DNA of 64,000 bases. Source: Sphingomonas arvum (GTDB taxonomy: Bacteria > Pseudomonadota > Alphaproteobacteria > Sphingomonadales > Sphingomonadaceae). The stretch is from contig NZ_JAPDOB010000002.1 of the NCBI RefSeq assembly GCF_026013565.1, forward strand, positions 620,001 to 684,000. The letters run 5' to 3'. Positions within the stretch are counted from its first letter, which is position 1. Each line of letters begins with the position of its first letter. The notes below the pieces were generated by a model, which saw only the letters and a list, made by a program, of their open reading frames with translations, made no database searches and had not been told where the DNA came from. Below are positions 4,975-56,202 of the stretch, piece by piece. A program made the translations under genes and the position numbers.

Positions 4975-5049
4975 GCGCCTAAACTCCTTGGATTGGGATG
5001 GTGCAGCGGGGGTAGCTTTGCCGCCGCAGGGATACAAGCGGCCGGGTTG

Positions 5050-5664
5050 ATGCGTTACACCCCCGTTATGGCAGCCGTTCCCGACTCCCAGCCCAACGAC
5101 CGCCGCGCCGTCGACAACCGCCGCGGCATCGTCACCCTGATCACCGGCTGGCTAATCCTGGCGATCGCCGCCATGACCTTCATCCTGCCGCTCGGCGACC
5201 CGCGCCACGCCGGCACCATGCTCGGCCTCCTCCTGGTCGCCGCCGGCGGGCTGGAGATCGTGGCGGGCAGCCAGCGCAACGCCGCGCGGTTGCCGTCCAT
5301 GGCGGCCGGCGTGCTGACCGCCGTGGTTGGCGTCCTGTTCCTCACCGGCGAGTGGCGCGGCTACATTCCGGCGGTCAACGTCGTACTCATCTGGCTCGTG
5401 CTGCATAGCATGCTGCTGTTGCTCGCCACGCTGCGCGGCGGCACCTCGTCGGTGCGCAAGTGGACCGGCATCGCCGCCGCCACCGACTTCCTGCTGGGCG
5501 CCCTGCTGCTGATCGGCGTCTCCATCTCCAGCCTGGTCTATAACCTGTTCGGGCCAACCGAATATCTGGTCGCCAGCTTCGCCTGGATCCTGGCCTTGAG
5601 CTTCGTCGCGACCGGGACCATGCTGCTTGAGGTGGCGAACTGCGAGCGGGAAGGGGCCGCCTGA
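5050..5664 (+). CDS. HdeD-like (DUF308) integral membrane protein
   Basis: 204 aa with six hydrophobic segments, for example LITGWLILAIAAMTFILPLG, AGVLTAVVGVLFLTGEW and NVVLIWLVLHSMLLLLATL. The length and the repeated paired helices match the HdeD/DUF308 family, whose E. coli member helps in acid resistance. The start is uncertain: ATG at 5050 gives this length, ATG at 5068 would trim six residues, and neither has a clear ribosome site. It is divergently oriented from the SCP2 gene. Confidence 0.8.
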   Translation: MRYTPVMAAVPDSQPNDRRAVDNRRGIVTLITGWLILAIAAMTFILPLGDPRHAGTMLGLLLVAAGGLEIVAGSQRNAARLPSMAAGVLTAVVGVLFLTGEWRGYIPAVNVVLIWLVLHSMLLLLATLRGGTSSVRKWTGIAAATDFLLGALLLIGVSISSLVYNLFGPTEYLVASFAWILALSFVATGTMLLEVANCEREGAA

Positions 5665-5689
5665 TCGCCGCCTGAGCGGGGAGGGGGCA

Positions 5690-8507: not shown

Positions 8508-8658
8508 CCCGCGGCGCAGCGGCTGCTGCGCCCTCGGCTCCACCCTCCGCGTCCGCCTTCTGTGATTTGCGGCCGGGACCAAAGCACACCCAGAGCAGCG
8601 CGAGCCCGAGCAGCACGGCCGGCGCGATCCACAGCAGCAGGGCGATCACATATACCAT
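8488..8658 (-). CDS. Small single-pass membrane protein, unknown function
   Basis: 56 aa from ATG 8658, with AGGGA upstream. One transmembrane helix (VIALLLWIAPAVLLGLALLW) is followed by a short Lys/Ala/Gly-rich tail. It converges with the DUF3142 gene and the two overlap by 20 bases at their 3' ends. No family is recognised. The open frame extends upstream as Arg-rich sequence, which is rejected. Confidence 0.55.
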   Translation of the reverse strand: MVYVIALLLWIAPAVLLGLALLWVCFGPGRKSQKADAEGGAEGAAAAAPRANAVPG

Positions 8659-8794
8659 TGTTCGGTCCCTGTTTTCATCGCTGCGGCAACTATCGAGCGG
8701 CGGCTCAGGAACCCTGTCATGCCGGCCATGTCCCAAGGTGGAACAGCGGCGTGTGCGAACGCCAGCCGGCCATTCCCCTGGGAAACGGACCGCG

Positions 8795-9034
8795 TTAGCC
8801 GTCGCGCGCGCCAGCCAGCAGCTTGCGCGCGATTTCCCGCACCGCGTCGTCGTCGGCCGTTCCGTCCTTCGCCGGATCCCCAAGGTGATCGAGGCTTCGC
8901 TCGATCGTGTCGATCAGCCCCGGTCGCTGTGCTTCCACCGCCTGGACCACATGGAACAGGATATGCTCAACCGCCATCTCGCGCTGCCGGGCCTGAACGG
9001 CGGTCGGTGAAGGGGATTGCTCGACATTGGCCAT
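8795..9034 (-). CDS. Small soluble hypothetical protein
   Basis: 79 aa with ATG at 9034 and AGGGAG upstream. It is predicted to be helical (AVEHILFHVVQAVEAQRPGL, then AVREIARKLLAGA) with an acidic middle. I do not recognise a family. It is transcribed away from the multicopper oxidase, with a 297-base intergenic region between them that holds a perfect 14-base inverted repeat. Confidence 0.55.
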   Translation of the reverse strand: MANVEQSPSPTAVQARQREMAVEHILFHVVQAVEAQRPGLIDTIERSLDHLGDPAKDGTADDDAVREIARKLLAGARDG

Positions 9035-9141
9035 GGTGTTGGCTCCCTAGTTTCGTGCATCGCGAGCGCCCGGCGCGCGCTATGGTTCCGGCTGCAGTAG
9101 TCAGCGCTCGGCGCGTCGCGTTGGCCACCGCGACGCTGATC

Positions 9142-9175
9142 GTCTTGGCCGCGGTTTCGCCACCGCGGCCAAGAC
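9142..9175. repeat. Perfect 14-bp inverted repeat with 6-base loop
   Basis: GTCTTGGCCGCGGT at 9142-9155 is exactly mirrored by ACCGCGGCCAAGAC at 9162-9175 around TTCGCC. There is no following T run on either strand, so it is unlikely to be an intrinsic terminator for either flanking gene. It lies between two divergent genes, about 160 bases before the multicopper oxidase start. It could be an operator dyad or an RNA hairpin. Nothing else is evident in the 9035-9331 intergenic stretch. Confidence 0.6.
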
Positions 9176-9331
9176 CGGCTATTGCCGCAACGAAAGGTCT
9201 AAGCCCCCGTGACGGCTCACGATTCCGTTGAGGGGAGGGGCTGTTCAAGTTACTCTGGTAAACGCCTGATTACCGGAATGAACAAGGCCTCTGAGTCGAC
9301 CTTGAGCGGTCCGGAACGAGGGGAGGCGACC

Positions 9332-37681: not shown

Positions 37682-41851
<4,170 letters not shown>

Positions 41852-42175
41852 GGTGTTTCCCGCGTTGGCGAAGCACGGCTTCCCGCGCTCCGCTGGCCCC
41901 CTGCCGTCAGGCATGGGTCAGTTCCGCCCCGAAGGGCCCAGTGATGGAGCGCTGGCTCCTGCGTCTCCTCCCCATGCGTTGAGCCCGTGCGCCGTTCGGA
42001 CCCTGTCCCGGGGAGGGCAGGAAAGGCCCCAGGCGCACGAGAGCGTGCGGCGGAGCCGTTATGTTTGTTGGATGTGCCTCAGATACGCTTCGGCGAGCGG
42101 ATTGCAAGAGGCAAAAGCAACCAAATCCCCGTCCGGCCATTGGCGGTCCGACAGTTGACGGAAGGACCCACCCGA
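41852..42175. promoter_or_regulatory. 324-base divergent promoter region for rpoB and a lipoprotein gene
   Basis: Because rplJL is detached, rpoBC must have its own promoter here. The best minus-strand candidate I see is TTGCAA (42102-42107) and TATCTG (42080-42085) with a 16-base spacer; this is weak and leaves a leader of about 220 bases. The region also holds short G+C-rich dyads around 41960-42040. No gene is supported: the frames that run through here from both sides are Arg/Gly-rich extensions. Confidence 0.35.
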
Positions 42176-42556
42176 ATGCGCCTCATCCCCATCGTTCCGG
42201 TTGCCCTGATGCTGGCCGCCTGTGGCTCCAGCGAGAACCCGGCCGGCAAGGACCTGTCGGATGCTGCCAACCAGTCGGATCCCGCGGCCGCGGCGGTGAT
42301 CAACCAGGCCGAGCAGGCGGGCATGAACGAGCAGCAGGCGCTCCAGGCTGCCAGCAACGCCGCCGCCGCCAACGACCAGGCCGCGGCCGCTCGGGCTGCC
42401 CGCGGTCCGGTGCAGGCCGTGCCCAACACGGTGCAGACGCCCAACCGTCCCGACGGCACCCGGCCGCCGGCCAAGGGCACCGGTTCGACCAGCATCCCCG
42501 GCATGCAGATGGGTGGGGAGCAGAAGCAGCCTCAGCCGAGCGGAGGGCAGCGCTAA
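42176..42556 (+). CDS. Predicted lipoprotein, Ala/Gln-rich
   Basis: 126 aa, ATG 42176 with GGAAGG upstream. MRLIPIVPVALMLAACGSSE is a clear lipoprotein signal (lipobox LAAC). The mature part is an Ala/Gln-rich helix (AVINQAEQAGMNEQQALQAA) and a Pro/Gly/Thr-rich disordered tail ending in GGQR. Such a form suits a periplasmic tether or low-complexity envelope protein; no function is known. Confidence 0.75.
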   Translation: MRLIPIVPVALMLAACGSSENPAGKDLSDAANQSDPAAAAVINQAEQAGMNEQQALQAASNAAAANDQAAAARAARGPVQAVPNTVQTPNRPDGTRPPAKGTGSTSIPGMQMGGEQKQPQPSGGQR

Positions 42557-42611
42557 CGCAGGCGCTCGCGCCTTGGTGTTGTCTTAACGCGCGGATGCTA
42601 CAAGGCCGTCC

Positions 42612-44030
42612 ATGGCGACGGCGGCAGCGAGCATCGATCAGTCCGGAAGCAGGGAAGGAAGCTGGTGGCGGGGCCCGGCCGCCGTGTGGGCCGTGGCCTT
42701 GCTGGGCGCCCTTATCCTGCTGATCCACCCGCGTCGCCTGTTTGGCGACGGCGACACTGGTTGGCACCTCGGCGCGGGCAACTGGATCCTGCGGACGGGC
42801 ACCATACCGCACGTCGATCCCTTCTCTTTTACCTTTCGAGGCGCGCCCTGGACCGCGCACGAGTGGCTGGCCGAGATATTGATGAGCGGCGCCTTCCGGC
42901 TTGCGGGCTGGAACGGTCTAACGGTTCTCTTCACGCTAGTCGCAACCTGCACCCTGCTGCTGGTCGGGTGCGAGCTGCTCCGCTGGCTCCCGCCGCGGTG
43001 GGCCGGCGCCGGGCTGTTCGCCGCCGCCTGCACGGCTGTGCCGATGGTCCACGCGCGACCACACATGCTCGGCTGGCTGCTGTTCGCAGGCTGGCTGATC
43101 CTTCTGCTGCACGCCCGCGAGCGGCGGGGTTTGCCGCCTTGGTGGGCACCGTTGCTCATGGCGATCTGGGCCAACCTCCACGCCAGCTATATCCTTGGGC
43201 TGGGCATCGCCGGCCTGTTCACCCTGGAAGCGCTGATCGACCATCGCCGCGAGCCCGCCACAGCGCTGCGCTGGGCGGCCTGGGGCTTGCTCGCGCTCGC
43301 CGCCACGACGCTTACCCCATTGGGGCTGCAGGGCTTTCTTTATCCCTTCCAAGTCAAGGACATGAAGGTCCTAGCAATCATCACCGAATGGCGCCCGACC
43401 CGACTGCCCGACGATGCGCCGTTCCTCTTTTATGCGGCGCTGTTCTGGGCCTTCGTGGCGACCCGCTGGCGCCGTTTCCCGCCGCTCCGCCTGCTGCTGC
43501 TGGCCGGCCTGTTCGGCCTGGCGCTGCTGCACGTCCGGCACCAGCCGTTGTTCGGGCTCACGGCGGCGCTGGTGGCCGCGCCCTTGTTCGGGCAGCCGCA
43601 AGCTAAGCCGCACATGCGCTGGGGCTGGGTAGTGGGCGTGCTGGCGGTGCTCGCGGGCGCCCGATTGCTGGTGCCGTGGCAGATGCCGGACACCGCAGAA
43701 TATCCGCTCACTCTCATCAACCGCCTGCCGCCCGACCTGCGGTCCCGGCCTGTGCTCAACGACTACAGCATGGGTGGTCCACTGATCATGAGCGGGATCG
43801 CGCCAGCGATCGATGGTCGAGCCGACATGTACGGCGACGATTTCAGCTTTGCCCACCTGGCCATGCAGAACGGCGGCATGCCTAAGTTCCGTGCCTTCGT
43901 CCGCCGCTGGGACGTCAGGTGGACCATCCTGACCCGCGACTCGCCACTGGCGGCGAAGCTCAATCGGGAACCCGGCTGGCGCCGTTATGCGGCAACGCGC
44001 GATGCCGTCGTGCACGTGCGCACGCGCTAG
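42612..44030 (+). CDS. Polytopic membrane protein, GT-C glycosyltransferase-like
   Basis: 472 aa with about ten hydrophobic helices. After the first helix come GDGDTGWHLGAGNWILRTG and DPFSFTFRGAPWTAHEWLAE. An acidic D-x-D-type motif in the first outer loop followed by a W-x-x-HEWL turn recalls GT-C fold glycosyltransferases that use polyprenyl-linked sugars. The C-terminal soluble part (RPVLNDYSMGGPLIMSGIAP, DGRADMYGDDF) is as seen in such proteins. The substrate is not known. It sits alone on the plus strand between rpoB and rplL. Confidence 0.75.
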   Translation: MATAAASIDQSGSREGSWWRGPAAVWAVALLGALILLIHPRRLFGDGDTGWHLGAGNWILRTGTIPHVDPFSFTFRGAPWTAHEWLAEILMSGAFRLAGWNGLTVLFTLVATCTLLLVGCELLRWLPPRWAGAGLFAAACTAVPMVHARPHMLGWLLFAGWLILLLHARERRGLPPWWAPLLMAIWANLHASYILGLGIAGLFTLEALIDHRREPATALRWAAWGLLALAATTLTPLGLQGFLYPFQVKDMKVLAIITEWRPTRLPDDAPFLFYAALFWAFVATRWRRFPPLRLLLLAGLFGLALLHVRHQPLFGLTAALVAAPLFGQPQAKPHMRWGWVVGVLAVLAGARLLVPWQMPDTAEYPLTLINRLPPDLRSRPVLNDYSMGGPLIMSGIAPAIDGRADMYGDDFSFAHLAMQNGGMPKFRAFVRRWDVRWTILTRDSPLAAKLNREPGWRRYAATRDAVVHVRTR

Positions 44031-44033
44031 GCA

Positions 44034-44067
44034 AACAAAAAGGGCGGCCCCGGTAGGAGCCGCCCTT
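44034..44067 (-). terminator. Intrinsic terminator of rplJL (hairpin may act both ways)
   Basis: AGGGCGGC (44041-44048) pairs with GCCGCCCT (44059-44066). On the minus strand the hairpin is followed by TTTTTGTTT, a good terminator for rplL, 31 bases past its stop. On the plus strand the T-poor TTCCTTG makes a weaker stop for the membrane-protein gene. It means rpoBC is not simply read through from rplJL. Confidence 0.85.
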
Positions 44068-44097
44068 CCTTGTTCGTCGACTAAGAGTCGAAGAAGC

Positions 44098-44472
44098 TTA
44101 CTTGAGGTCGACGGTGCCGCCGGCATCCTCGATCTGCTTCTTGATCTTCTCGGCCTCGTCCTTGTTGACGCCTTCCTTGATCGGCTTCGGCGCACCCTCG
44201 ACGAGGGCCTTCGCCTCACCCAGGCCCAGGCCGGTGATCGCGCGGACTTCCTTGATGACGTTGATCTTCTTGCCACCGTCGCCGGTGAGGATCACGTCAA
44301 ACTCGGTCTTCTCTTCGGCGGCCGGGGCAGCGGCGCCGGCAGCGGCCGGAGCGGCGGCGACGGCAGCGGCGGCCGAAACGCCCCACTTCTCTTCCAGTGC
44401 CTTGGCGAGGTCAGCGGCCTCGAGGACGGTGAGCGCCGACAGCTGGTCGACGATGTTCTGAATGTCAGCCAT
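44098..44472 (-). CDS. rplL: 50S ribosomal protein L7/L12
   Basis: 124 aa. The N-terminal dimerisation domain ([20 protein letters not shown]), Ala/Pro-rich hinge, and C-terminal factor-binding domain ([35 protein letters not shown]) are all typical. It forms the ribosomal stalk and recruits translation GTPases. It lies 60 bases downstream of rplJ and ends at its own terminator rather than running into rpoB. Confidence 0.98.
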
Positions 44473-44532
44473 TTGTTACTCCTGTGCGGGCCAGTCGGCC
44501 CGGCTTGATCGTGCGTTGAGGGTAGTGAGTGC

Positions 44533-45054
44533 TTAAGCCGCTTCGGCGGTGTCCGCCGCGTAAGCGCCGAAGACCCGGGCCAGCATCGCGCCCGGCTCGT
44601 TGATGGTGCGGGCGATCTTGCTCGCGGGTGCCTGAATCAGGCCCACGAGGGTCGCACGCAGCTCGTCGAGCGAGGGGAGCGCCGCAAGCGCCTGGATCCC
44701 ATTCACGTCGAGGACGGTATCGCCCATCGCCCCGCCCAGAACCTCGAACTTGTCGGTGGTCTTGGCGAAATCCACGGCGACCTTGGCGGCCGCAACTGGA
44801 TCAAGCGAGGTGGCGATTGCAGTGGGGCCCTTCAGCAAGTCGCCGATGGGCTGGTACTGCGTTCCGTCCAGCGCGATGAGAGCCAGCCGGTTCTTCGCAA
44901 CCTTGAACTGCGCTCCGGCGTCGCGCATCCGCAGGCGCAGATCGGTGGACTGCGCCACCGACAGGCCGAGATTGCGGGTGATCACCACCACGCTGGTCTC
45001 GGCGAAGACCTGCTTCAGCTCGGCAACCAGATCCGCCTTTTCATTGCGATCCAT
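44533..45054 (-). CDS. rplJ: 50S ribosomal protein L10
   Basis: 173 aa from ATG 45054 ([17 protein letters not shown]), preceded by TTTGGAGTTGGC. Core segments [20 protein letters not shown] and [13 protein letters not shown] bind 23S rRNA, and the C-terminal helix carries the L12 dimers. L10 (with L12) usually represses its own operon by binding the leader mRNA; the leader here is about 240 bases. Confidence 0.97.
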
Positions 45055-45409
45055 GCCAACTCCAAACGTTTCGCCCGAAGACAAGCCTTCGAGCGAGGTT
45101 CAACCAACTCCGAAGGGGCAAGCCGCTCCGAAGCACTTCAGTCCGTGGGGTTGGGAGGTGTGCGTCTCAACTCAACGCACGACAGGTCCGCGCAAGCGGC
45201 CCTGAAGAAACTCTCTTCCCCGTCTAGGCTGCGGATTAAGGGGCGAGCCCCGGCAGCTGTCTCGGACGGCGTTCCGGCAAGCCGGGACGTGGGCGGGCCT
45301 ATAGCGAAGTTCGTGCGACAATCAACCTCTTGCCCGCGCCGGTCCGCGCAGCGCTCGCTTGGGCTCGTGCGTTTGGGATGGCGGATCAACGCTTTGAGAG
45401 GAGGAGCAG
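45055..45409. promoter_or_regulatory. 355-base divergent region: rplJ leader and promoter
   Basis: No gene is supported. On the minus strand TTGATT (45320-45325) and TATAGG (45298-45303) with a 16-base spacer make the best promoter candidate for rplJL, leaving a leader of about 240 bases. That leader contains several G+C-rich dyads and is the expected place for L10-L12 autoregulation, but I cannot trace the known L10-leader fold by eye. The plus-strand gene at 45410 is served by AGGAGGAGCAG just before its ATG. Confidence 0.45.
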
Positions 45410-46117
45410 ATGGCGGGGTATCGCGGTGATGGATACGGCGTCTACGGCGACCACGGGGACGACGATTTCAGGTTCGGCGACGATCGCGGCCGCGATCGGG
45501 ATATCCGCGGCGAGCGCGACCGGGGACGTCCCGAGGAGCGCGGCTTCTTCGAGCGCGATCGTGATGATGACGGACCTCGGCAGGGTGCGACGCACGGCAA
45601 CGTGATGGGCCGGGCGGAGCAAGCCGTGCGCAGCTATGTCGAGGGCGGCGATCATGGCAGCGGGCGTGGCCACCAGTTGTCGGACGACCCCCGGGCGGTT
45701 CGGGCCGCGGGCGACTGGAACCGGCAGCATGGCCGCGAAGGATATGAGGGCAGCTATGCCCAGCACCCGGACCCGTACCAGAGCTACCGCGAGCGCCACC
45801 TGGCCGAGATGGACCGCGACTATGACGACTGGTGCCGCCAGCGTGAGCAGCAGTTCCACAGTGAGTTCAAAGACTGGCGCTCGCGGCGGCAGATGTCGTC
45901 GGGCCAGGTCGGCCAGGTCCAGTCGCAGATGTCGAGCCAGCAGGGCGACATGCCGGCGCTTGAGCTGAGCGACGCCGCCCACGCCACGGCGCCGGACGTC
46001 CCGGTTACGGCCGAGCAGCCATCGCGAGCAGGTTCCGGAGCATCGCGTCGCCGTGGGTCGTCAGGATCGACTCCGGATGAAACTGCAGGCCAGACTGGCG
46101 GGCAACAGGATCGCTGA
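45410..46117 (+). CDS. SWFGD-like hydrophilic small protein with altered C-terminus
   Basis: 235 aa, ATG 45410 with GAGGAGGAG upstream. The N-terminal part is extremely rich in Asp, Arg and Gly. A more conserved block, DPYQSYRERHLAEMDRDYDD and QQFHSEFKDWRSRR, resembles what I recall of sphingomonad SWFGD-domain proteins. The last ~38 residues (from about 46005) are encoded on the antisense strand of trpG and are Ser/Gly/Arg-rich, unlike the rest. The original end may therefore have been lost when the trp genes came to lie here. Function unknown. Confidence 0.7.
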   Translation: MAGYRGDGYGVYGDHGDDDFRFGDDRGRDRDIRGERDRGRPEERGFFERDRDDDGPRQGATHGNVMGRAEQAVRSYVEGGDHGSGRGHQLSDDPRAVRAAGDWNRQHGREGYEGSYAQHPDPYQSYRERHLAEMDRDYDDWCRQREQQFHSEFKDWRSRRQMSSGQVGQVQSQMSSQQGDMPALELSDAAHATAPDVPVTAEQPSRAGSGASRRRGSSGSTPDETAGQTGGQQDR

Positions 46118-46583
46118 AGGCCATCACCATGCCATCGGCCTCCCCGTGCACGGTGAAGCGCCCGGGGAGGTCACGGGTGCACAGCGAATGGTAGCGGGCG
46201 ATCCGCAGCGGACTTGGGAGGCCGACGAAGGGACCGGCACTGTCGTGCTCCAGCAGCGTCGCCTTGCCGTGCACCGGGTCGGGTGAGCGGGTGACCGTGC
46301 CGCCCGCTTCCTCCACGATCGCCTGGTGACCGAGGCAGATCCCGATTACGGGTACAACTCCTTTGGCCTGGCCAATAAGGTCGAGGCAGCATCCGGCGTC
46401 CTGCGGCGCGCCAGGCCCAGGCGACAGCATGATGGCGGCACCGGTTCGCTCCGCCTCGGCAATGGCCTCCTCGGCTGCAACCGTGTTGCGCAGCACACGT
46501 ACTTTGCTGCCGAGGCGCTGCAGGCTCTCCACCAGGTTGAATGTGAAGCTGTCGAGATTGTCGATCAGCAGGACCGGCGTCAT
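46005..46583 (-). CDS. trpG: Anthranilate synthase component II (glutamine amidotransferase)
   Basis: 192 aa from ATG 46583, overlapping the trpE stop (ATGA). Starts [20 protein letters not shown]. The class I amidotransferase triad is present: Cys in GICLGHQAI, and His/Glu in LQFHPESILT. It supplies ammonia from glutamine to TrpE. It is the last gene of the trpL-aroF-trpE-trpG operon; trpD and trpC do not follow. Its last 113 bases overlap the convergent SWFGD-like gene. It could also serve 4-aminobenzoate synthesis, but the coupling to trpE argues for anthranilate. Confidence 0.93.
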   Translation of the reverse strand: MTPVLLIDNLDSFTFNLVESLQRLGSKVRVLRNTVAAEEAIAEAERTGAAIMLSPGPGAPQDAGCCLDLIGQAKGVVPVIGICLGHQAIVEEAGGTVTRSPDPVHGKATLLEHDSAGPFVGLPSPLRIARYHSLCTRDLPGRFTVHGEADGMVMAFSDPVARQSGLQFHPESILTTHGDAMLRNLLAMAARP

Positions 46584-48088
46584 GCCGCCACCCGCGTGTC
46601 GGCCGGCGCGGCGAGCACGCCAAGCAGCGCGGAGGCCTTGGCCCGGGTCTCGGCCGCTTCGGCCAGGGGATCGCTGTCGTGGACCACGCCTGCGCCTGCC
46701 CGGACGAAGGCCGTCCCGTCGATCACCAGCGCCGAGCGGATCACCACCGCCGTGTCCATCAGCCCGGCGCCGTTCACCCATCCGACCGCACCGCCGTAAG
46801 GGCCGCGGCGGGTGCCCTCCAGCTCTCGCAGCAGCTGCATGGCGCGGATCTTGGGCGCCCCGGTCAGGGTGCCGACGTTAAGGCAGGCAGCGAGCGCGTC
46901 GAAGGCGTCGAGCCCGATACGCAGCTTGCCCGTCACCGACGAGACCAGGTGCATAACCCGCGAGAAACGTTCCACCGTGAGCAGCTTCGCCACCCGCCGC
47001 GTGCCTGGCAGCGACACGCGCGCAACATCGTTTCGGGCAAGGTCGACCAGCATCATGTGCTCGGCCAGCTCCTTGCCGTCGAGCCGCATCTCGGCCTCCA
47101 GCCGGTCGTCCTCGTCGGGAGTGGCGCCGCGTGGTCGAGTGCCGGCGATCGGCTTCACCTCGACCGTCAGTCCACCTTCCGGACCGCGGAACAGCCGGAC
47201 CGAGGTCTCTGGGCTGGCACCGAGCAGCGTAAAGCCGACGCCCGCCAGGTAGAAGCGGTAGCTCGAAGGCTCGATGGTGCGGAGACTGCGGTAGGCGCGC
47301 AAAGGGCTGGGGCAGGGTGCGGAGAAGGTTCGGGACGGCACGATCTGGTAAACCTGGCCCGCAGCGATCGCTTCCTTGGCCCGGCGAACCACCGCGGCAA
47401 AGGCCTGATCGTCCAGGTCGGCCGTGGGAGCCGAAGACGATCCTGCTCTTCCGTCTGCAGACGGCTGGCGATCAAGCGCGGCAGCGGCGCCCAACAGCTG
47501 CTCGAGGCGTCGCGCGGCGTCATTGAGCTGGCGCTCATCATGGCCGAAGGCGGGACAGAGGAGCCGGGCGCCGCCACTCGGTTCGACGACCGCGAGGCTC
47601 TCCGGTACCCAGAACAGATAGTCGGGAAAGTCGAGCGGGTCGCTGTGCGGCGGCGGTAGGTCCTCACTAAAGCCGGCCTGGTCGAAGCTGCTGACACCCA
47701 GGAGCAGGGCGCCGAAGGGATCAGCCTGCGCGCCGGCCGCTGCGAGCAGGTTGCGGAGGGCATGCAGCGGGGCTGGTGCGACCAGCCGCTCTTCCGCGTC
47801 GGCACTCTCCGATGGGATGTAGTCCAGCACCAGCGTATGGCTGACCGCCATCCCGGCCCGCCGCGCCACGTCGGCCAGCAGCGCGGCGCCGTTCGCGGTC
47901 AGCGCTTCCAGCGTCACCCGGCCAGCCCGCGCGCTGGCGCGCACGGCGGCGGCGGCCATCACCAGCGTCCGACCGTCGTTCGCCTCGAACAGGCCAGTGT
48001 CCGGGCGAGCCCCGCCGTCGCTCACCACCTCGTAGAAGGCGAGCGGATCGAGCGGTGTGTCCAGCCGGCGCTGAACCAGCCGGGTCAC
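46580..48088 (-). CDS. trpE: Anthranilate synthase component I
   Basis: 502 aa from GTG 48088, which overlaps the aroF stop (GTGA). The chorismate-binding domain is complete: FQIVPSR-type [54 protein letters not shown] and [20 protein letters not shown]. By eye the whole length, including the feedback-binding N-terminal half ([20 protein letters not shown]), follows the enterobacterial TrpE rather than the form I expect in alphaproteobacteria. It converts chorismate and ammonia to anthranilate. Overlaps on both sides show strict translational coupling. Confidence 0.92.
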
Positions 48089-49098
48089 AGGCTGCGTCCG
48101 ACCGCCGCCGCCAGCGGCTCCAGCCGCCGCATGAGGTCGGCGAACTGGTCGGGGTAAAGCGACTGAGCGCCGTCGGACAGCGCCTTGGCCGGGTCGCGGT
48201 GCACCTCGATCATCAGCCCGTCGGCACCCGCGGCGACGCCGGCCAGCGCCATGGCCGGAACCAGCTCCCGCAGGCCGGTGCCGTGGCTCGGATCGACGAT
48301 GATCGGCAGGTGGGTGCGCCCTTTCACATAAGGCACGGCGTTGAGGTCGAGCGTATTGCGGGTGGCGGTCTCGAACGTGCGGATGCCGCGTTCGCACAGG
48401 ACCACCTGGTCGTTGCCAGCGCTTAGGAGATATTCCGCGGCCAGCAGCCATTCCTGGATCGTTGCGCTCAGCCCGCGCTTCAGCACCACCGGGCGTCGGG
48501 TCTGGCCGACGGCGCGTAGAAGGGCGAAATTCTGCATGTTGCGGGCGCCGATCTGCAGTGCGTCGGCCTGCTCGGCCACGACGGAGAGGTCGGCGGTGTC
48601 CATCACCTCCGTGACCACCGGCATGCCAAGCTCGTCCGCCACCTCGCGCAGGATAGACAGTCCGGCCGGCCCGTGTCCGGAGAAGCCATAGGGGCTGGTC
48701 CGCGGCTTGTAGGCGCCGGCGCGAAGCAGGGTCGCGCCGGCCTGCTTGGCCGCCAGCGCGCTGTCGTACAGCTGGTCGCGGTCCTCGACTGCACACGGGC
48801 CGGCAATCACCGCCAGTCGTTCGCCGCCGACCGGCACGCCGCCGATGTCGACCACCGTGTCGTGGGGGTGAAGCTCGCGGCTGACCAGCTTGTAGGGTGC
48901 TAGAATGGGCTTGACGCTCTCCACTGCCGGGTCGCCGTCAAGGGCGAGCTCGGCCAGTACCCGTTCGTCGCCGAGCGCGCCTAGCACCACCCGCTCGCTG
49001 CCCGGCATGTGCAACGGCTTGAGGCCGGCGGACGAGATGCGTTCGAGCAGCCGGTCGGCGCTGTCTGCGGGAGCGTCGGGCTTCAGTACAATGATCAT
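48085..49098 (-). CDS. aroF: 3-deoxy-7-phosphoheptulonate (DAHP) synthase, type I-beta
   Basis: 337 aa from ATG 49098. An N-terminal ferredoxin-like regulatory domain ([20 protein letters not shown] to about residue 75) precedes the barrel, as in the Thermotoga-type enzyme. Catalytic and metal residues: [58 protein letters not shown] and IEVHRDP. It condenses PEP and erythrose-4-phosphate, the first step of the shikimate pathway. Its place ahead of trpE, behind a Trp-codon leader, suggests a tryptophan-controlled isozyme. Confidence 0.93.
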
Positions 49099-49139
49099 GG
49101 GAGAATGGTCCTGCGGTCGGGAGAGGGGAGCGGCAGGCC

Positions 49140-49165
49140 AAAAAAAACCCGCCAGAGCGGCGGGT
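49140..49165 (-). terminator. trp attenuator terminator hairpin
   Basis: On the minus strand CCCGCC and GGCGGG pair around GCTCT (plus-strand 49148-49164; A-T extension at the base), followed by eight T residues (plus A run 49140-49147). It stands 29 bases after the trpL stop and 41 bases before the aroF ATG, so it can only serve as a conditional terminator of the operon leader. Confidence 0.88.
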
Positions 49166-49193
49166 CGGATGCGAACTCGTGAAGGAAACGAGT

Positions 49194-49262
49194 CTAGGCC
49201 GGCACGCCGCAATCGGAATGCCAGCGCCACCAACGGGCGATCAGAGTCGGCTGGTGAGTCAT
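49194..49262 (-). CDS. trpL: trp operon leader peptide
   Basis: 22 codons from ATG 49262 to TAG 49194-49196. The peptide starts [17 protein letters not shown] and ends CGVPA; codons 11, 12 and 14 are Trp. A ribosome stalling at these codons would cover the first pairing segment of the leader and favour antitermination. The candidate -10 box ends only 7 bases before the ATG, so the transcript probably begins at or next to the A of ATG and is translated without a leader. That is how trpL is described in Sinorhizobium meliloti. The three genes it would control make anthranilate. Confidence 0.85.
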
Positions 49263-49269
49263 CTCCGCC

Positions 49270-49297
49270 AGCTTAGGCGTGCCCGTCGGCGCGTCAA
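49270..49297 (-). promoter_or_regulatory. Promoter of the trpL-aroF-trpE-trpG operon
   Basis: Read on the minus strand: CTTGACG gives a -35 box TTGACG (49292-49297), 16 bases, then TAAGCT (49270-49275) as -10. A start 7 bases on falls at the trpL ATG (49262). The -35 is near consensus, the -10 is weaker. Confidence 0.6.
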
Positions 49298-49341
49298 GCG
49301 GGCCGTTGCAACACTGCGCGCTCGAAAGCGTTGTCGGACAA

Positions 49342-49521
49342 ATGGATTTAGCAGCAAAGTATCGGGCCGAGCGCCATCGGCGCGCGGCGGAGGACAGTCT
49401 CAAGCTCGCGATGCGGGCCAGCGGCGAGGGCTCGCTGGCCTTGCTCATCGACACGGCAATCGAAAGCCGGCGGCAGGCAAGGGAAAGCGAGCGTGAAGGC
49501 TCGAACTTGACGCAGCAATGA
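49342..49521 (+). CDS. Small helical protein, unknown function
   Basis: 59 aa from ATG 49342. A single charged helical protein (MDLAAKYRAERHRRAAEDSL, LALLIDTAIESRRQARESER) with no membrane segment. A similar-sized protein is encoded at 58423. It is divergent from the trp operon promoter, 79 bases from trpL. The ribosome site is weak. I do not recognise a family. Confidence 0.5.
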   Translation: MDLAAKYRAERHRRAAEDSLKLAMRASGEGSLALLIDTAIESRRQARESEREGSNLTQQ

Positions 49522-49563
49522 TCGTCAGGGACGGCCGGGCAGGACGGCCGCCCGCGGCGATGC

Positions 49564-49965
49564 TCATTGCGCGGAGCCGGCGCTGACGCTGATCGCGGCC
49601 ACCGCCAAGTTCGCTGTACCTGCCTGAGCATAACGCTCAGCGGTGGCGATCGCCCGCGCCATTTGCGGCCGCGCGCCATCCCAGGCGGTCTCAACGCAGC
49701 GCGTGTAGCTGCGCGACAGTGCGCCTTCACGATGCGGGTAGCACACCTTCGCCACGGCGAAATTGACCCGCCGGTTCAGCGACTTCTTGCCCTGCGCTGA
49801 GGCGAGCTGAAGATCGCCAATGTAGACGGCAGCGCGCGGCACATCGTCCGACACGGCCGCCCGGACCGTCACGTCTCGTGCCTGTGCAGGGCCCGCCGCG
49901 GCCATCACCGCGACACTTGATACGCAAAGCGCGGCTGCGCCCATCAGCAACTTGGTAGCATTCAT
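49564..49965 (-). CDS. UrcA family exported protein
   Basis: 133 aa from ATG 49965 (AAAGGGAGTG upstream). Signal peptide MNATKLLMGAAALCVSSVAV ending near AGPAQA. The mature part has YIGDLQLASAQGKKSLNRRV and two Cys in AKVCYPHREGALSRSYTRCV, which fits the UrcA family of small periplasmic proteins common in sphingomonads and caulobacters. Function unknown; the two cysteines probably form a disulfide. Confidence 0.82.
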   Translation of the reverse strand: MNATKLLMGAAALCVSSVAVMAAAGPAQARDVTVRAAVSDDVPRAAVYIGDLQLASAQGKKSLNRRVNFAVAKVCYPHREGALSRSYTRCVETAWDGARPQMARAIATAERYAQAGTANLAVAAISVSAGSAQ

Positions 49966-50249
49966 GGTAACACTCCCTTTCACGTCCCCCGACAGGAGTG
50001 GGGTGGGCAAGGAATGCACCGGTGACGGCCGGTGGGCACGTCAAGTTCGCCGGACCCGTGGCCGGTGCTCGGCTGAGCGACGAACGGGCATGTCGGCCAT
50101 AACGAAGGTGCGCTTGGCTTCGACCGGCGGCGGCGGGGCTGCTGATGGGCGGTGATGAGTCGACGAACGGCGGCGACGGCGGACCAACGCACAAACGAAC
50201 TCCCCCGCGACCAGGTCGCGGGGGAGCAGGTTGATCAGGCGATGGCGAA

Positions 50250-50786
50250 TCAGAAGCTGGAGGTGCCGCCCCCGCCGGTGCTCATCTCGTTGTGGCGCTG
50301 GCCGCCGCCCATCGGGCTCTGGCCGAACTGCCCCATAGACGGGTCGTTGCCCTGCGCCCCGACCGACTCGCCGGACGTATAGGCGCTGCCGCCTTCGCGA
50401 TCGTTCTGGCTGCCCATCCGCTGCATGCTGTCGTCGTTCATCGAGGACTGGCTGCCGCTCATGGACGAACCGCCGCTGCCGCCCATTGCACTGCCGCCGC
50501 TCGAGCCGAACTGGCTGAAGGCACTGCCGCCGCTTGAGCTCGACGTGCCGCCCTGACCACCCTTCATCAGCTGATCGTGGAGCAGCATCTTCGCTTGGTC
50601 GGCCAACTGCCGCTGCATCTGCATCGCCTGCTCGAAGAACTGGCGGAGCTGCTGCTCGGTGTTCGCATCGCTCAGATAGGTCTGGCAGGTGTCGGCGCCT
50701 TTCAGCGCATGGTAGAGCACGGATACGACGTCATACGTGCTGTCGCGGGTGCCGGTGCTGCTGCTGCTGCTCGAGTTCTGGTCCAT
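50250..50786 (-). CDS. Ser/Gly-rich protein with ferritin-like helical N-terminus
   Basis: 178 aa from ATG 50786 (GAAGGAGGAG upstream). After MDQNSSSSSS, residues ~15-75 form two amphipathic helices (TYDVVSVLYHALKGADTCQT, RQFFEQAMQMQRQLADQAKM) like half of a ferritin-like bundle. The remaining ~100 residues are a low-complexity Ser/Gly/Met/Gln tail. I know of similar sphingomonad proteins without assigned function. No metal-ligand set can be made out. Confidence 0.65.
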   Translation of the reverse strand: MDQNSSSSSSTGTRDSTYDVVSVLYHALKGADTCQTYLSDANTEQQLRQFFEQAMQMQRQLADQAKMLLHDQLMKGGQGGTSSSSGGSAFSQFGSSGGSAMGGSGGSSMSGSQSSMNDDSMQRMGSQNDREGGSAYTSGESVGAQGNDPSMGQFGQSPMGGGQRHNEMSTGGGGTSSF

Positions 50787-50901
50787 GAAAAACTCCTCCT
50801 TCGGATGCCCGCGCCTTGGGGAAGGCCCGGTCGGAAGGTTAACGCGCCAGGGGAAGCGAAGGTGCTCGCCCTGGCGCTGATTTTCACGGTCTGACCGGCA
50901 C

Positions 50902-51300
50902 TTACTGGCCGGTGAGCGGCAGGCTGTCGGTGCGGCCCGAATCGCCGCCGCCAAGTTCGCCTTCGGGCTCTGGAGCGCCGCTGCCGATGTCCATGCCCGC
51001 CCCCGCGCCGATCGCGTCGCCGATGGTGTTGTCCGGGTCGTCGCCGGTGCCTACGCCAGCCGCGTCAGCCAGGCTGCCGTCGGCCGGCCCGAGCGCCGCC
51101 ATCTCCCGGGCGATCGCCGCATCGGCGGTCCCGGCCAGCTCGCCAGGACTGGCAAGCGGATGCTCGTTGCTGAACTGGACGTCGTCCTTGCCGGACGGGT
51201 CGCCCGAGCCGGCGAACGCGTCCTCATTCTCCGCTGCAGCGCCTTGAAGCTGGCGCTCGCCCAAGCCTCCGCCGTGATTGTCGATGTTGCGCTGGTCCAT
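50902..51300 (-). CDS. Acidic disordered protein, unknown function
   Basis: 132 aa from ATG 51300 (AAAGGAGAG upstream). It is rich in Asp, Gly, Ala and Glu with hardly any basic residues after position 20, and few hydrophobics, so it is likely disordered. It begins MDQRNIDNHGGGLGERQLQG. It lies 101 bases upstream of the Ser/Gly-rich gene on the same strand; both start MDQ and may belong to a common stress regulon, which is inference. Confidence 0.6.
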   Translation of the reverse strand: MDQRNIDNHGGGLGERQLQGAAAENEDAFAGSGDPSGKDDVQFSNEHPLASPGELAGTADAAIAREMAALGPADGSLADAAGVGTGDDPDNTIGDAIGAGAGMDIGSGAPEPEGELGGGDSGRTDSLPLTGQ

Positions 51301-51353
51301 GCTGCTCTCCTTTGGGGCCTCAACGCACGAGCGGGCGGCTTGTGGCGTTCCGG

Positions 51354-52544
51354 TTAGATCGCTTGCGCGGCGGCCCAGCCGCTGGCCCATGCCCACTGGA
51401 AGTTGTAGCCGCCGAGCCAGCCGGTGACGTCCACCGCCTCGCCCACGGCGAACAGGCCCGGAACCTTGCGCGCCGCCATGGTCCGGGAGGACAGGCCATC
51501 CGTGGCGATCCCGCCGGCGGTGACCTCGGCTTTGGCGTAGCCTTCGCTGCCACTAGGGTTGAAGCGCCAGTCGGCCAGGCGGCGTTCAGCGTCGGACAGG
51601 ATGCGGTCTGGCGTATTGGCCAGCTCGGCCGTGAGCCCAATACGCTCGGTTAGGGTCTCGGCAAGGCGCCCGGGTAGTCGGCGGTCGAGTAAGCTGGCGA
51701 GGCGCGCACGCGGCTGCTCGCGCTTGGCGGCGAGCAGCCAGCCAGGTGCCTCCTGCGGCAGGAAGTCGACGGCGACCTCGCGCCCGCGCCGCCAGTAGCT
51801 CGACACCTGCAGGATCGCTGGGCCGCTCATCCCGCGGTGGGTAAACAGGGCGGCTTCGCGGAAGCCGGCACCAGCGCAGCGCGCCTCGACCGGAGCGGCG
51901 ACCCCCGACAGGCTGCGGAACAGCGCTTCGTCTCCGCCGAGGGTCAGCGGCACAAGGGCGGGACGGGGTTCGACCACCTTGAGCCCAAACTGGCGGGCGA
52001 TGTCGTACGCGAAGCCCGTGGCGCCTAGCTTGGGAATGGAGGGGCCGCCCGTGGCGATGACCAGGGCCGGCGCCTCGGCCACGATCTCGCCGGCGGCGAC
52101 CCGGAAGCGGCCGTCGGCATGGTCCACTGAACTGACGGGCGCGCCGAAGCGGAAGCTCACGTCGCCCTTGGCACATTCGGCCATTAGCATGGCGACGATC
52201 TGCCGCGCGGATCCGTCGCAGAACAGCTGGCCGAGCGTCTTCTCGTGCCAGGCGATGCCGTGCGCCTCGACCAGCGCAAGGAAGTCGTGCGCGGTGTAGC
52301 GCTTGAGCGCTGACACGGCGAAGTGCGGGTTGGCCGACAGGTAGCGATCGGGCGCGGTGCCGAGGTTGGTGAAGTTGCAGCGCCCGCCGCCGGAAATCAG
52401 GATCTTGCGGCCTGGCTCGTCATTGTGGTCGATCACCAGCACACGCCGGCCACGCTGTCCCGCGACACCGGCGCACATCAGGCCGGCGCCGCCGGCGCCG
52501 AGCACGATCGCGTCGAAAAAGGAGGGACTGTCCACTTTGTCCAC
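51354..52544 (-). CDS. HI0933-family flavoprotein (YhiN-like oxidoreductase)
   Basis: 396 aa. FAD-binding dinucleotide fold [20 protein letters not shown] and the family-specific [10 protein letters not shown], then [14 protein letters not shown]. The C-terminal [20 protein letters not shown], with the second FAD contact, is the hallmark of HI0933/BaiN-like proteins. The reaction is not established for most members. The start is GTG at 52544 or 52535; the rplA terminator stands just upstream, so it needs its own promoter or read-through. Confidence 0.88.
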
Positions 52545-52550
52545 TTCAAC

Positions 52551-52579
52551 AAAAAGGCCGGGGCGTCGCCGCCCCGGCC
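52551..52579 (-). terminator. Intrinsic terminator of rplKA
   Basis: On the minus strand GGCCGGGGCG pairs perfectly with CGCCCCGGCC around GCGA and is followed by TTTTT (plus A run 52551-52555). It lies 28 bases after the rplA stop, showing that the L11-L1 pair is a separate transcription unit here. Confidence 0.93.
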
Positions 52580-52606
52580 CTCATGCGGCCAGTGCCGGAA
52601 GGCGGC

Positions 52607-53305
52607 TTACGCCCCAGCAACTTCCTCCAGCGCGACCTTTACGCCCGGGCCCATGCTCGAGCTGACGGCGGCCTTCTTGAGATACTTGCCCTTGGCGCCC
52701 GCGGGCTTGGCGCGGACGATGGCGTCGACAAACGCATCGAAGTTCGCGCGCAGGTCGGCGGCGTCGAAGCTGGCCTTGCCGATGCCGGCGTGGATGATGC
52801 CCGCCTTCTCGACGCGGAACTCGATCTGGCCGGCCTTGGCGTCCGTCACCGCCTTGGTGACGTCCATGGTGACGGTGCCAAGCTTCGGGTTCGGCATCAG
52901 GCCCTTGGGGCCAAGCACCTTACCGAGGCGACCGACGACGCCCATCATGTCGGGGGTGGCGATTACGCGATCGAAGTCGATCTGGCCGCCCTGGATGGTC
53001 TCCATTAGGTCCTCGGCCCCGACCACGTCCGCACCGGCGGCAGTGGCTTCGTCGGCCTTCGCGCCTTTGGCGAACACCGCCACGCGGACGGTCTTGCCAG
53101 TGCCCTTGGGCAGGTTGACGACGCCACGGACCATCTGGTCGGCGTGACGGGGGTCGACGCCCAGGTTCAGCGCGATTTCGACCGTCTCGTCGAACTTGGA
53201 GGTGGCGAGGGTCTTCACCAGGCCCAGCGCCTCGTCGACGCCGTACAGCTTCTCACGGTCGACCGAACCGGCCTGGGACTTCTGCTTCTTGGTCAGCTTG
53301 GCCAT
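52607..53305 (-). CDS. rplA: 50S ribosomal protein L1
   Basis: 232 aa. Typical L1 segments: [63 protein letters not shown]-type loop, and [19 protein letters not shown]. It binds the 23S L1 stalk and in most bacteria represses its own operon. Two bases separate it from rplK. It is followed by a terminator instead of rplJ. Confidence 0.98.
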
Positions 53306-53307
53306 GT

Positions 53308-53739
53308 TCAGCCCTCCACAACCTGAAGGCCCATGGCGCGCGCCGAGCCTTCGATGATCTTGGTCGCGGCCTCGACGTCGTTCGCGTTGAGGTCCTTCAT
53401 CTTGGTTTCCGCGATCTCGGCAAGCTGCGAGCGCTTGATGGTGCCCGCGCTGACCTTGCCCGGCTCCTTCGAGCCCGACTTGAGGCCCGCGGCCTTCTTG
53501 ATCAGGAAGCTCGCCGGCGGCGTCTTGGTCGCGAAGGAGAAGGAGCGGTCCGCATAGACGGTGATCACCGTCGGGATCGGCATGCCCTTTTCCATCTCCT
53601 GCGTGGACGCGTTGAACGCCTTGCAGAATTCCATGATGTTGACGCCGCGCTGACCCAGGGCTGGACCGATCGGCGGGGAGGGGTTGGCGGCGCCGGCCGG
53701 CACCTGCAGCTTGATATAGCCGGTAATCTTCTTGGCCAT
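53308..53739 (-). CDS. rplK: 50S ribosomal protein L11
   Basis: 143 aa from ATG 53739 ([20 protein letters not shown]), preceded by a GAGAGTG site. [20 protein letters not shown] is the thiostrepton/GTPase-centre region. The C-terminal rRNA-binding domain ends [14 protein letters not shown]. Normally nusG and secE precede rplK; here a sulfotransferase gene does, 152 bases away. Confidence 0.98.
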
Positions 53740-53891
53740 GTCACTCTCGTTTTTGTGGCACCTGGGCTGCAACAGCAGCCAGGCGCGCGCAGTTTAGCGG
53801 TTCAGACGAGCACCGAGGCACTCTCCCGCAGGCTTTTCCAGTGCTGTCTGGAAGGGCGCGCCCTTAGCGGACGAGCACGCCGGGCGCAAGC
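53740..53891 (-). promoter_or_regulatory. rplK leader with stacked dyads
   Basis: Three dyads lie in 152 bases. A 9-bp stem with one bulge, CCTGGGCTGC/GCAGCCAGG around AACA (53761-53783), ends 21 bases before the rplK ATG. TTCCAG/CTGGAA around TGCTGT is at 53836-53853. A perfect 14-base palindrome AAGGGCGCGCCCTT is at 53852-53865. They may include an L1-type leader site, or the 3' end of the sulfotransferase transcript. No T run follows any of them, and I see no convincing promoter boxes. Confidence 0.35.
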
Positions 53892-54878
53892 TCAGGCGGG
53901 GTCGACGGCGAGCCAGTGCGACAGGTCGCGCCCCAGCAGGCCGCCGAGCTTCGCCACGTCCGCGGCGAAGGCGTCGTGCAGTTCCTGCCGCAACGGACGG
54001 CTGACCCGGATCTCGGGCGAAGGCGTGCGGTTCCACTTCAGCAGGCGCTTGCGCACCCGCATCAGCGCGCGGACGGGCGGCGGTGCCGGCTTTTTCGGCT
54101 TGGCCGCGACGCGAGTGCGGAATTTCTCGCCAGCCAGAACGGAGGTGGCCACTGGCGGGCGCTTGAGCAGGCGCTGCAGCCACGGCCAGCGGGTACCGGC
54201 CGCCTCCCGCTTGGGCTTGAAGTCGGTCCGGCCGTCGTGCGGCAGGCCGAGAAAGGCGAGCAGGTCGGCGTAGACCTGCGGCGGGTCGCGGACGAGGTCG
54301 TCGTGCACCACAACGTGGCAGCGCGCGCGTCCAACGGCGGCGAAGAACGCCTCCACCGCATCGCCCAGCCGCCCGGCCATGTCGTAGCGGAGCAGGCGCG
54401 GGTCGAGGCAGCTGCGCGGGATATGCCGCCCGGCCGCTCGCTCCGGCACCAGGCGCCAGGCTTCGGCGAAATCGGCCACGTCCTCGTCGCCGGTCACCAG
54501 GTAGCGCTGGTGCAGCGAGGGGATCAGCTTCAGCGGATCACGCACGCCGATGATGAACCGCGCGTCCGGCCACAGCCGCAGGATCGCCGCCATCTTCTCC
54601 GGCCCATACAGGTAGGAGACGGATCCCTCGGCCAGCCACTCAGCCGAGCGCCAGTGGTCCGGAAAGTAGCGGCCGAGATAGCCGCCCTCGACTGTCGCGC
54701 GGAGCTGTTCGTCATCAAGGCCGTCTAGGTCGTGGATGGCGAAATAATGCGGCTCCTTCGGCCGGGAGAAGGTCACGGCCGGATGGCGCGCCAGATAGTC
54801 GGCCAGGCTGGTGGTGCCGCAGCGCGGCGCCCCAACGATCACCGCCAGGCGCGGCCAGTCGGTCGGCGGCACGCTCAT
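53892..54878 (-). CDS. Sulfotransferase domain protein
   Basis: 328 aa. The PAPS 5'-phosphosulfate loop is GAPRCGTTSLADYLARHP near residue 16 and the 3'-phosphate site is FIIGVRDPLKLIPSLHQRY near residue 110. VVVHDDLVRDPPQVYADLLA and FLGLP fit the Sulfotransfer_1/3 family. A basic C-terminal region follows. It would transfer sulfate from PAPS to an unknown acceptor, perhaps a cell-surface sugar or lipid. It starts 4 bases after the bamB stop on the same strand and may be cotranscribed with it. Confidence 0.88.
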   Translation of the reverse strand: MSVPPTDWPRLAVIVGAPRCGTTSLADYLARHPAVTFSRPKEPHYFAIHDLDGLDDEQLRATVEGGYLGRYFPDHWRSAEWLAEGSVSYLYGPEKMAAILRLWPDARFIIGVRDPLKLIPSLHQRYLVTGDEDVADFAEAWRLVPERAAGRHIPRSCLDPRLLRYDMAGRLGDAVEAFFAAVGRARCHVVVHDDLVRDPPQVYADLLAFLGLPHDGRTDFKPKREAAGTRWPWLQRLLKRPPVATSVLAGEKFRTRVAAKPKKPAPPPVRALMRVRKRLLKWNRTPSPEIRVSRPLRQELHDAFAADVAKLGGLLGRDLSHWLAVDPA

Positions 54879-54882
54879 GCGC

Positions 54883-56202
54883 CTAGCGGAAGGCGTGCAG
54901 GCGCGCGTTGTCGTCCAGGATGTACAGCGTGCTGTTGGCTACCACTGGTGAGAGGTGGACGCCGGCGCCGACATTGGTCTGGCTCTGGAAAGCGCCGGTG
55001 GCCGGGTCGACGTTGATCAGCGCACCATTGGAGCCCGCGACGATCAGCCGCTCGCCGGCCAGAATCGGGCCGACATAGGTGATCGCGCCCTTGCGCGACT
55101 TGGCGTTACGCCAGGCCGGCAGCTGGTTGATCCAGCGGATCTTGCCCGTGTTGCGGGCGATCGCGACCAGCTTGGCGTCGTCCGTGGTGACAAATACCCA
55201 GTCGCCCGCGACCCACGGAGTCGAGATGCCGGCAAGGTTCAGTTCCCAGATGCGCTGACCGGAGAGCAGGTCGATCGCAACCATGCGGCCGCCCTGGCCA
55301 ACCGCGAACACCTGGCCGTTGTCGATCACCGGTGAGGCGTCGATGTCCGACAGGGTGGCGACAGAGGTCGAAATGGAGGTGCGGGCCAGCGCGTCCTGCC
55401 ACACGGTGCGGCCATTCTCAGCGCGGTAGGCGTTGAGCTCGCCCGAGCTGAAGCCAGCGACGACCGTTGACTGGGCGATGGCCGGGGCACCGGTGCCGAA
55501 CACGCCGGCGATCTCCAGCGCGGCCGGGTTGGACCAGTTGGTCGCCCCGTCCGCTGCCTTGAGCGAGAATATCTGGTTGTCCTGGCTCATCACGTAGACC
55601 GTGGTGCCATCCACGGACGGAGCGCCGCGCAGCGGGCCGCCGAGGCGGACCTGCCAGCCGATGCCGCCGTTGCCGGTGTCCAGCGCGGCGACGAAGCCGA
55701 GCCCGTTGGTGGCGAACACGCGGCCATTGGCCACAGCCACGCCGCCGCCAAACAGCGATGCGCCGTTGCCCTTTTCGGTGCCGAATTGGGTCGCCCACAG
55801 CTGGCGACCGCTGGCCGCCTCGAACGCACGCACGGTCGAGGTCGTATCGATGGTGAAGACCTTGCCGTCCGCCACCACTGGAGCCGAGGCGAGCCGCGCC
55901 TGAGGCCGGTCACCGGCGCCAATGCTTGCGGTCCAAGCGTTGCCGAGGGTGGCGCCGAGCGCCAAGTGTCCGAGCGACTTGGCGGGGTTGCCGCCTGGTT
56001 GGGCCCAGTCCGGATTTGCAGCGACGGCCGGAAGCGAAAAGGGCAGGGCGGCGGTCTCGGGGTCAACCGCGATGTCGAGGTCCTGCGTCAGAACCGACAC
56101 CCGATTGCCGACCACGGGCGTCTTGGGCCGCGAGCGGTTGAAGGGGTTGCAGGCGCTCAGCAGCGCGGCTGCGATCATCACCCCGGCGATTCGCTTGTTC
56201 AT
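54883..56202 (-). CDS. bamB: Outer membrane assembly lipoprotein BamB (PQQ-like beta-propeller)
   Basis: 439 aa from ATG 56202 with AGGACAT upstream. Lipoprotein signal GVMIAAALLSACNPF (lipobox LSAC). The rest is an eight-bladed PQQ-type propeller with repeated A-x-D-x-x-x-G-x-x-x-W blades, for example FEAASGRQLWATQFG, LDTGNGGIGWQVRLG and IDLLSGQRIWELNLAG. It is a subunit of the BAM complex on the periplasmic face of the outer membrane. It is preceded by a YfgM-like gene (28 bases), the same neighbour it has in gammaproteobacteria. Confidence 0.92.
   Translation of the reverse strand: MNKRIAGVMIAAALLSACNPFNRSRPKTPVVGNRVSVLTQDLDIAVDPETAALPFSLPAVAANPDWAQPGGNPAKSLGHLALGATLGNAWTASIGAGDRPQARLASAPVVADGKVFTIDTTSTVRAFEAASGRQLWATQFGTEKGNGASLFGGGVAVANGRVFATNGLGFVAALDTGNGGIGWQVRLGGPLRGAPSVDGTTVYVMSQDNQIFSLKAADGATNWSNPAALEIAGVFGTGAPAIAQSTVVAGFSSGELNAYRAENGRTVWQDALARTSISTSVATLSDIDASPVIDNGQVFAVGQGGRMVAIDLLSGQRIWELNLAGISTPWVAGDWVFVTTDDAKLVAIARNTGKIRWINQLPAWRNAKSRKGAITYVGPILAGERLIVAGSNGALINVDPATGAFQSQTNVGAGVHLSPVVANSTLYILDDNARLHAFR

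Follow-up and report, generated by a model that had tools for sequence, protein, structure and literature searches.

In the trp attenuator of Escherichia coli, a protector, an antiterminator and a terminator follow one another in this order, the leader holds tandem Trp codons and trpL has a 5' UTR. This system is outlined in the excerpts of PMC7298713, which together with those of PMC10117765 also describe the leaderless trpL of Sinorhizobium meliloti, the attenuation of its trpE(G) and the leader products rnTrpL and peTrpL; according to the same excerpts, only trpE(G) of the three Sinorhizobium trp operons is attenuated (PMC7298713). For DAHP synthase genes, the excerpted text of PMC1173090 lists predicted attenuators before DAHP synthase-tyrA operons of Vibrio and Thermus (its Table 7) and states that the I-beta subclass is not usual in Gram-negative bacteria. 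No Trp attenuator before aroF-trpEG in Alphaproteobacteria was found in a limited search of the open-licence literature, part of it in excerpt, and the excerpts of PMC1262725 and PMC2965389 contain nothing relevant. Thus, the mechanism considered here is already known; its pairing with aroF, and a split pathway attenuated twice, are undescribed in the limited literature searched.

Here we describe the leader of the aroF-trpE-trpG genes in a stretch of 64,000 nucleotides from Sphingomonas arvum (the window). When compared with plasmid records, the L1 protein has its nearest match in Sinorhizobium (73%), which fits an alphaproteobacterial host. The first-pass annotation had proposed a trpL with Trp at codons 11, 12 and 14, followed by a G+C hairpin and eight Ts, and all of these elements are present on the minus strand (Table 1). 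The terminator was also recovered by an independent terminator search, and 41 nt separate the end of its T run (49140) from the aroF ATG (49098). As in E. coli, protector, antiterminator and terminator are arranged in this order and the Trp codons include a tandem pair; unlike in E. coli, where a 5' UTR is found and transcription is also repressed under high Trp, trpL is apparently leaderless, an extra hairpin separates its stop codon from the terminator, and the first gene encodes a DAHP synthase. Hairpins resembling this extra one were also seen by eye in a few relatives. With S. meliloti trpLE(G), as presented in the excerpts, the locus shares a Trp-rich leader that begins at the first base of the transcript (here predicted), an intrinsic terminator and the control of trpE (PMC7298713; PMC10117765), but it differs in having aroF before trpE-trpG and a second attenuator on the trpD operon. 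In the Vibrio and Thermus cases, too, a predicted attenuator precedes a DAHP synthase gene, but they are listed with tyrA, and neither a Trp leader nor trpEG is named in the excerpted text (PMC1173090).

Table 1. Positions of the leader elements and genes of the aroF-trpE-trpG locus in the window.
Feature	Position	Strand	Basis and remarks
-35 box TTGACG	49292..49297	-	Sequence; 35 nt 5' of trpL ATG
-10 box TAAGCT (weak, probable)	49270..49275	-	Picked by eye
trpL ORF, 22 codons, Trp at 11, 12 and 14	49194..49262	-	Sequence; stop codon 49196-49194
Protector segment 1, GCTGGCAT, overlapping last Trp codon	49218..49225	-	MFE fold
Segment 2, antiterminator 5' arm GCGGCG	49205..49210	-	Best 2:3 stem
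Protector 3' arm, GTGCCGGC	49198..49205	-	MFE fold
Extra hairpin GACTCGT/ACGAGTT, trpL stop to terminator	49174..49194	-	MFE fold
Segment 3, antiterminator 3' arm CGCCGC, inside terminator 5' arm and loop	49157..49162	-	Best 2:3 duplex
Intrinsic terminator with eight Ts	49140..49166	-	Sequence, fold and separate terminator search; stem-loop 49166-49146, T run 49147-49140
aroF, type I-beta DAHP synthase (Bacillus type)	48085..49098	-	NCBIfam PRK08673 and DAHP_synth_Bsub above cut-off
trpE, anthranilate synthase component I	46580..48088	-	470 bits versus equivalog cut-off of 471
trpG, anthranilate synthase component II	46005..46583	-	TIGR00566 above cut-off

We are highly confident that transcription at this locus is attenuated by a ribosome-mediated mechanism of the E. 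coli type and that trpL is leaderless; the start site, ribosome stalling, Trp response and co-transcription are predicted from sequence. Transcription would begin at the trpL ATG or within about one base of it. When Trp-tRNA is scarce, the ribosome would stall at Trp codons 11-12 and cover segment 1, so that GCGGCG could pair with CGCCGC in the terminator 5' arm and RNA polymerase would proceed into aroF-trpE-trpG. When Trp is ample, the ribosome at the stop codon would cover segment 2, and the terminator would end transcription. Since trpD-trpCF-trpB-trpA has a Trp attenuator of its own, both halves of the pathway should respond together. Rfam includes a Trp leader family, and no match to it was found at E<=1 in a scan of 40000-56000, a result that speaks to that model and not to the mechanism; the same scan gave two weak matches, both below the gathering score and neither a Trp leader. 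At 44037-44070, where a CsrC match below threshold was obtained, a strong hairpin with a T run follows rplL and is probably an ordinary terminator.

The proposal that this attenuator controls aroF-trpE-trpG gains support from gene order, as the three genes are adjacent in all 17 long loci of relatives, and from four-base overlaps in the window, where the trpE GTG overlaps the aroF stop codon (GTGA) and the trpG ATG overlaps the trpE stop codon (ATGA). Residues 1-334 of AroF match PDB 1rzm/3pg9, which we take to be the DAHPS of T. maritima with its N-terminal regulatory domain. The other chorismate-binding gene of the genus, which sits in a shared neighborhood, is presumably pabB, and the trpE described here would then probably have no second copy. 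In 22 of 71 genus genomes, several of them 98-100% complete, PF00425 (chorismate-binding) has no match; either a loss of tryptophan synthesis or divergent copies that were missed are possible explanations. The genes rplK-rplA and rplJ-rplL usually form a tight cluster. In the window, the operon and several other genes (44098-53739) lie between rplK-rplA and rplJ-rplL, and the same placement is found in four of the 17 long loci of relatives; in a fifth, rplK-rplA only is within reach, and in the other 12 none of rplK, rplA, rplJ and rplL was found.

This aroF is found in 35 of 71 genus genomes. Among the sampled genomes of the family it occurs in 12 of 397 and is confined to three genera, and among those of the order in 15 of 196 at a looser cut-off, seven of these being from other families with 49-55% identity. 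Conservation was assessed in 42 aroF genomes, consisting of 35 of the genus and seven of two other genera, the window included; one locus (L108) offers only 113 nt of upstream sequence and stands outside the remaining 41. A Trp-rich leader ORF, a terminator-like stem and a T run are present at all 41 evaluable loci, the window included, which bears out the attenuator proposed in the first-pass annotation, and no loss of the Trp codons or the hairpin was seen among these aroF-keeping relatives. The leader peptides differ in length and N-terminus. In the clade of the window, the segment-2 core GGCG[T/C]GCC is kept in 12 of 12 genomes and is read in another frame in three of them, which argues for selection on the RNA more than on the end of the peptide. 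The elements, their conservation, spacing and gene order are direct observations. The loci form a large natural series in which Trp attenuators, apparently leaderless, precede aroF (41 cases) or trpD (27 cases) and in which the peptide diverges and the RNA switch stays. A genus-wide pattern (TTGA-spacer-ATG-spacer-TGGTGG) was tried as a regulon marker and rejected as too loose, for it matches all 71 genomes; in the genome of the window it has 11 matches, two of which are the trp leaders, and the backwards pattern has two.

The leader RNA of the window folds more stably than all of 200 dinucleotide shuffles (z -3.40). Both pairings drawn by hand in the first-pass annotation exist, as the protector belongs to the MFE structure and GCGGCG/CGCCGC is the best 2:3 duplex, although the latter is equalled by 35 of 200 shuffles and lacks significance when the window is taken by itself. 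Both of the mutually exclusive structures, protector (1:2) and antiterminator (2:3), are therefore present. Across the leaders, the antiterminator is centered on GGCG and its partner is the CCCGCC arm of the terminator together with the loop. Compared with shuffles, the 2:3 pairing has a mean z of -1.23 in the 41 leaders, being below -1 in 19 and below -2 in 11. When the arms were re-paired among the 41 leaders, the observed 2:3 score was reached in two of 300 permutations. With representatives, which lessen relatedness and still leave some of it in the permutations, it was reached in 50 of 5000 (29 representatives), 71 of 5000 (22), 368 of 5000 (12) and 330 of 5000 (10). Stems changed jointly on both sides include GCGGCG/CGCCGC, GATGGCG/CGCCATC, GGAGGCG/CGCCTCC, TGCGGCG/CGCCGCA and GGATGGCG/CGCTATCC. 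The compensatory changes anticipated from comparative folding are thus apparent with 41, 29 and 22 leaders but weak with 12 or 10, and the antiterminator covariation, although present, is modest.

The trpD-trpCF-trpB-trpA genes of the window's genome are on another contig (L164), where they occupy 2797-9319 together with their leader and a class II DAHP synthase gene behind them. The leader MVRTGHLLPTNGAWRWWRPMTSAARWRWR and a terminator precede trpD, and TTGACA lies 36 nt before the leader ATG, so this cluster appears to carry its own, leaderless-looking Trp attenuator. All 42 aroF genomes have trpD. By coordinates, with five aligned as a check, aroF and trpD are clustered on the same strand in 13 of them; the other 29 are called split, among them two with trpD ~5 kb off on the opposite strand (G250 and G200) and one with a divergent neighbor (G135). 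A Trp leader with a terminator precedes trpD in 27 of the 29 split genomes, six of these leaders beginning at GTG, and none was found before trpD in G212 and G140; a search allowing ATG starts only gave 24 of 29. In the three whole operons inspected, the stretch from trpG to trpD showed no leader. In the AroF tree, which has a midpoint root, all 13 whole-operon genomes fall into one 15-member group with two split genomes, and the other split genomes branch outside this group. The trpD leaders showed no covariation, with 293 of 300 permutations reaching the observed value for the 16 of 29 loci that entered, a narrow terminator expression having excluded the other 13. The fold of the window genome's own trpD leader equaled its shuffles (z 0.01) for a stretch that was one base late and without most of the T run. 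Two halves of a pathway, each switched by the same amino acid, offer a test case for what happens to regulation when operons split or fuse.

Of the alternative explanations, the most probable one adds a function to the attenuator: the terminated leader RNA or its peptide may also act in trans, by analogy with rnTrpL and peTrpL of Sinorhizobium. The anatomy is the same, that of a small leaderless mRNA with a terminator at its end, and rnTrpL acts on trpDC in Sinorhizobium, as the excerpts report (PMC7298713). However, Sinorhizobium attenuates only trpE(G), and here trpD is attenuated as well, which weakens the parallel and leaves the trpD operon in no need of trans control by the leader RNA; the frame change that keeps the RNA core and not the peptide's end, and the variation of the leader peptides, also speak against action in trans. 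We consider a trans role unlikely.

A start of transcription at the trpL ATG, as the first-pass annotation had placed it, is backed by promoter spacing. At 38 of 41 aroF loci, an in-frame ATG or GTG follows a TTGA[C/T] box at a distance of 35-37 nt, and when the upstream stretch was shuffled (200 shuffles), such a spacing was obtained at a mean of 0.18 loci and a maximum of two. The exceptions are G140 (41 nt) and G212 and G421, which have no such box. Among the trpD leaders, a TTGA box is found 34-38 nt before the start codon in 27 of 27, a count for which the box nearest to 36 was chosen where there were several; the shuffle baseline is that of the aroF loci. The 35-37 nt of the aroF loci is the distance required for a sigma-70-like promoter to initiate right on the start codon, and neither it nor the 34-38 nt of the trpD leaders can accommodate a 5' UTR. 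In the window, a 16-nt spacer separates the -35 and -10 boxes, and seven bases separate TAAGCT from the ATG (49262). A simple sigma-70 consensus scan of 49090-49700 found no promoter, probably because of the poor -10 box; with a weak -10 and an empty scan, the promoter claim rests on the conserved spacing, which makes a leaderless trpL well supported and provides strong, if indirect, support for a transcript that would begin at the trpL start codon. A real attenuator whose start lies upstream, with trpL translated from a normal 5' UTR, could draw on the same weak -10 box and empty scan and on Ferrimonas, in which TTGACA is, by eye, well 5' of the leader ATG, so that leadered versions may exist. 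Against it stand the conserved spacing at both sets of loci, far above the aroF shuffles, and the leaderless trpL of Sinorhizobium; an upstream start is therefore very improbable. A constitutive terminator beside a chance Trp-rich ORF is hardly credible, as both features persist at all 41 evaluable loci although the peptide diverges, even if the 2:3 pairing lacks significance in the window's own leader.

It had also been proposed that one attenuator gates both the entry to the shikimate pathway and the branch to anthranilate. This has to be revised, because the genome holds a second DAHP synthase gene, of class II, in the trpD cluster with its own Trp attenuator, 3' of trpA on the same strand with one frame between. 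That protein is short and scores 350 versus an NCBIfam cut-off of 615. In a search whose first-look filter may miss divergent copies, class II DAHP synthase was found in 37 of 71 genus genomes and in 26 of the 35 that carry aroF, the genome of the window included. The only other type I match in the latter is a 275-aa frame, which, judged by length, is taken for KDO8P synthase. Nine aroF genomes are without class II, among them G203, which is 100% complete on one contig and in which aroF is accompanied only by a 305-aa frame, likewise taken for KDO8P synthase; no class II gene was found in the stretches around trpA of G203 and G245. G203 thus apparently has no DAHP synthase besides AroF. Where a species depends on a single DAHP synthase under the control of a Trp attenuator, tryptophan supplementation would be expected to restrict the supply of Phe and Tyr unless basal read-through is high.

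AroF was also searched against a named collection, in which the genome of the window and its near kin are possibly absent, and the best 80 of 592 confirmed matches were considered. Among these 80, no title names Alphaproteobacteria, and the matches from outside the group are led by a Deltaproteobacteria MAG (66%), Lentisphaerae (63%), a Methylomirabilota MAG (62%) and Ferrimonas (60%); the first of these appears as Myxococcota in the AroF tree. In this tree of 55 rows (42 alphaproteobacterial and 13 of the 80, with a midpoint root and distant members of the order left out), the alphaproteobacterial rows stand together (100/97) beside a group holding gammaproteobacteria (96/90). Ferrimonas balearica (L020) and a Kangiellaceae MAG (L027) share the gene order of the window and have a Trp leader with a terminator before aroF; their AroF is 57-60% identical, and their genes form one unsplit operon, aroF-trpE-trpG-trpD-trpCF-trpB-trpA. 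In the Kangiellaceae leader, a count by eye places TTGACA 36 nt 5' of the ATG; the F. balearica leader, unlike the window's, is not obviously leaderless. The non-alphaproteobacterial best matches, together with the operon and leader of Ferrimonas and Kangiellaceae, make a lateral transfer of the whole aroF-trp unit likely. A wider account would have the Trp-attenuated aroF-trp unit originate outside the class, both split halves attenuated through leaderless leaders, both recognized DAHP synthase genes of the window's genome in Trp-attenuated clusters, and Trp gating all aromatic amino acids, Phe and Tyr included, in G203; we advance it tentatively, judging it slightly less probable than the reverse. 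The same genes are found in a gammaproteobacterial MAG (L022), where a terminator precedes aroF by 70-odd nt and the end of the contig truncates the leader region. In a Desulfobacterales genome (L092:7581-8001), a leader with WCWWW and then two terminator-like hairpins precede aroF, and no relative of the window's trp genes was found in its 16 kb, so that this may be a Trp attenuator on a stand-alone DAHP synthase. In the Kangiellaceae MAG (L027:7581-8001), the Trp leader and its terminator are followed by a second short stretch with another terminator.
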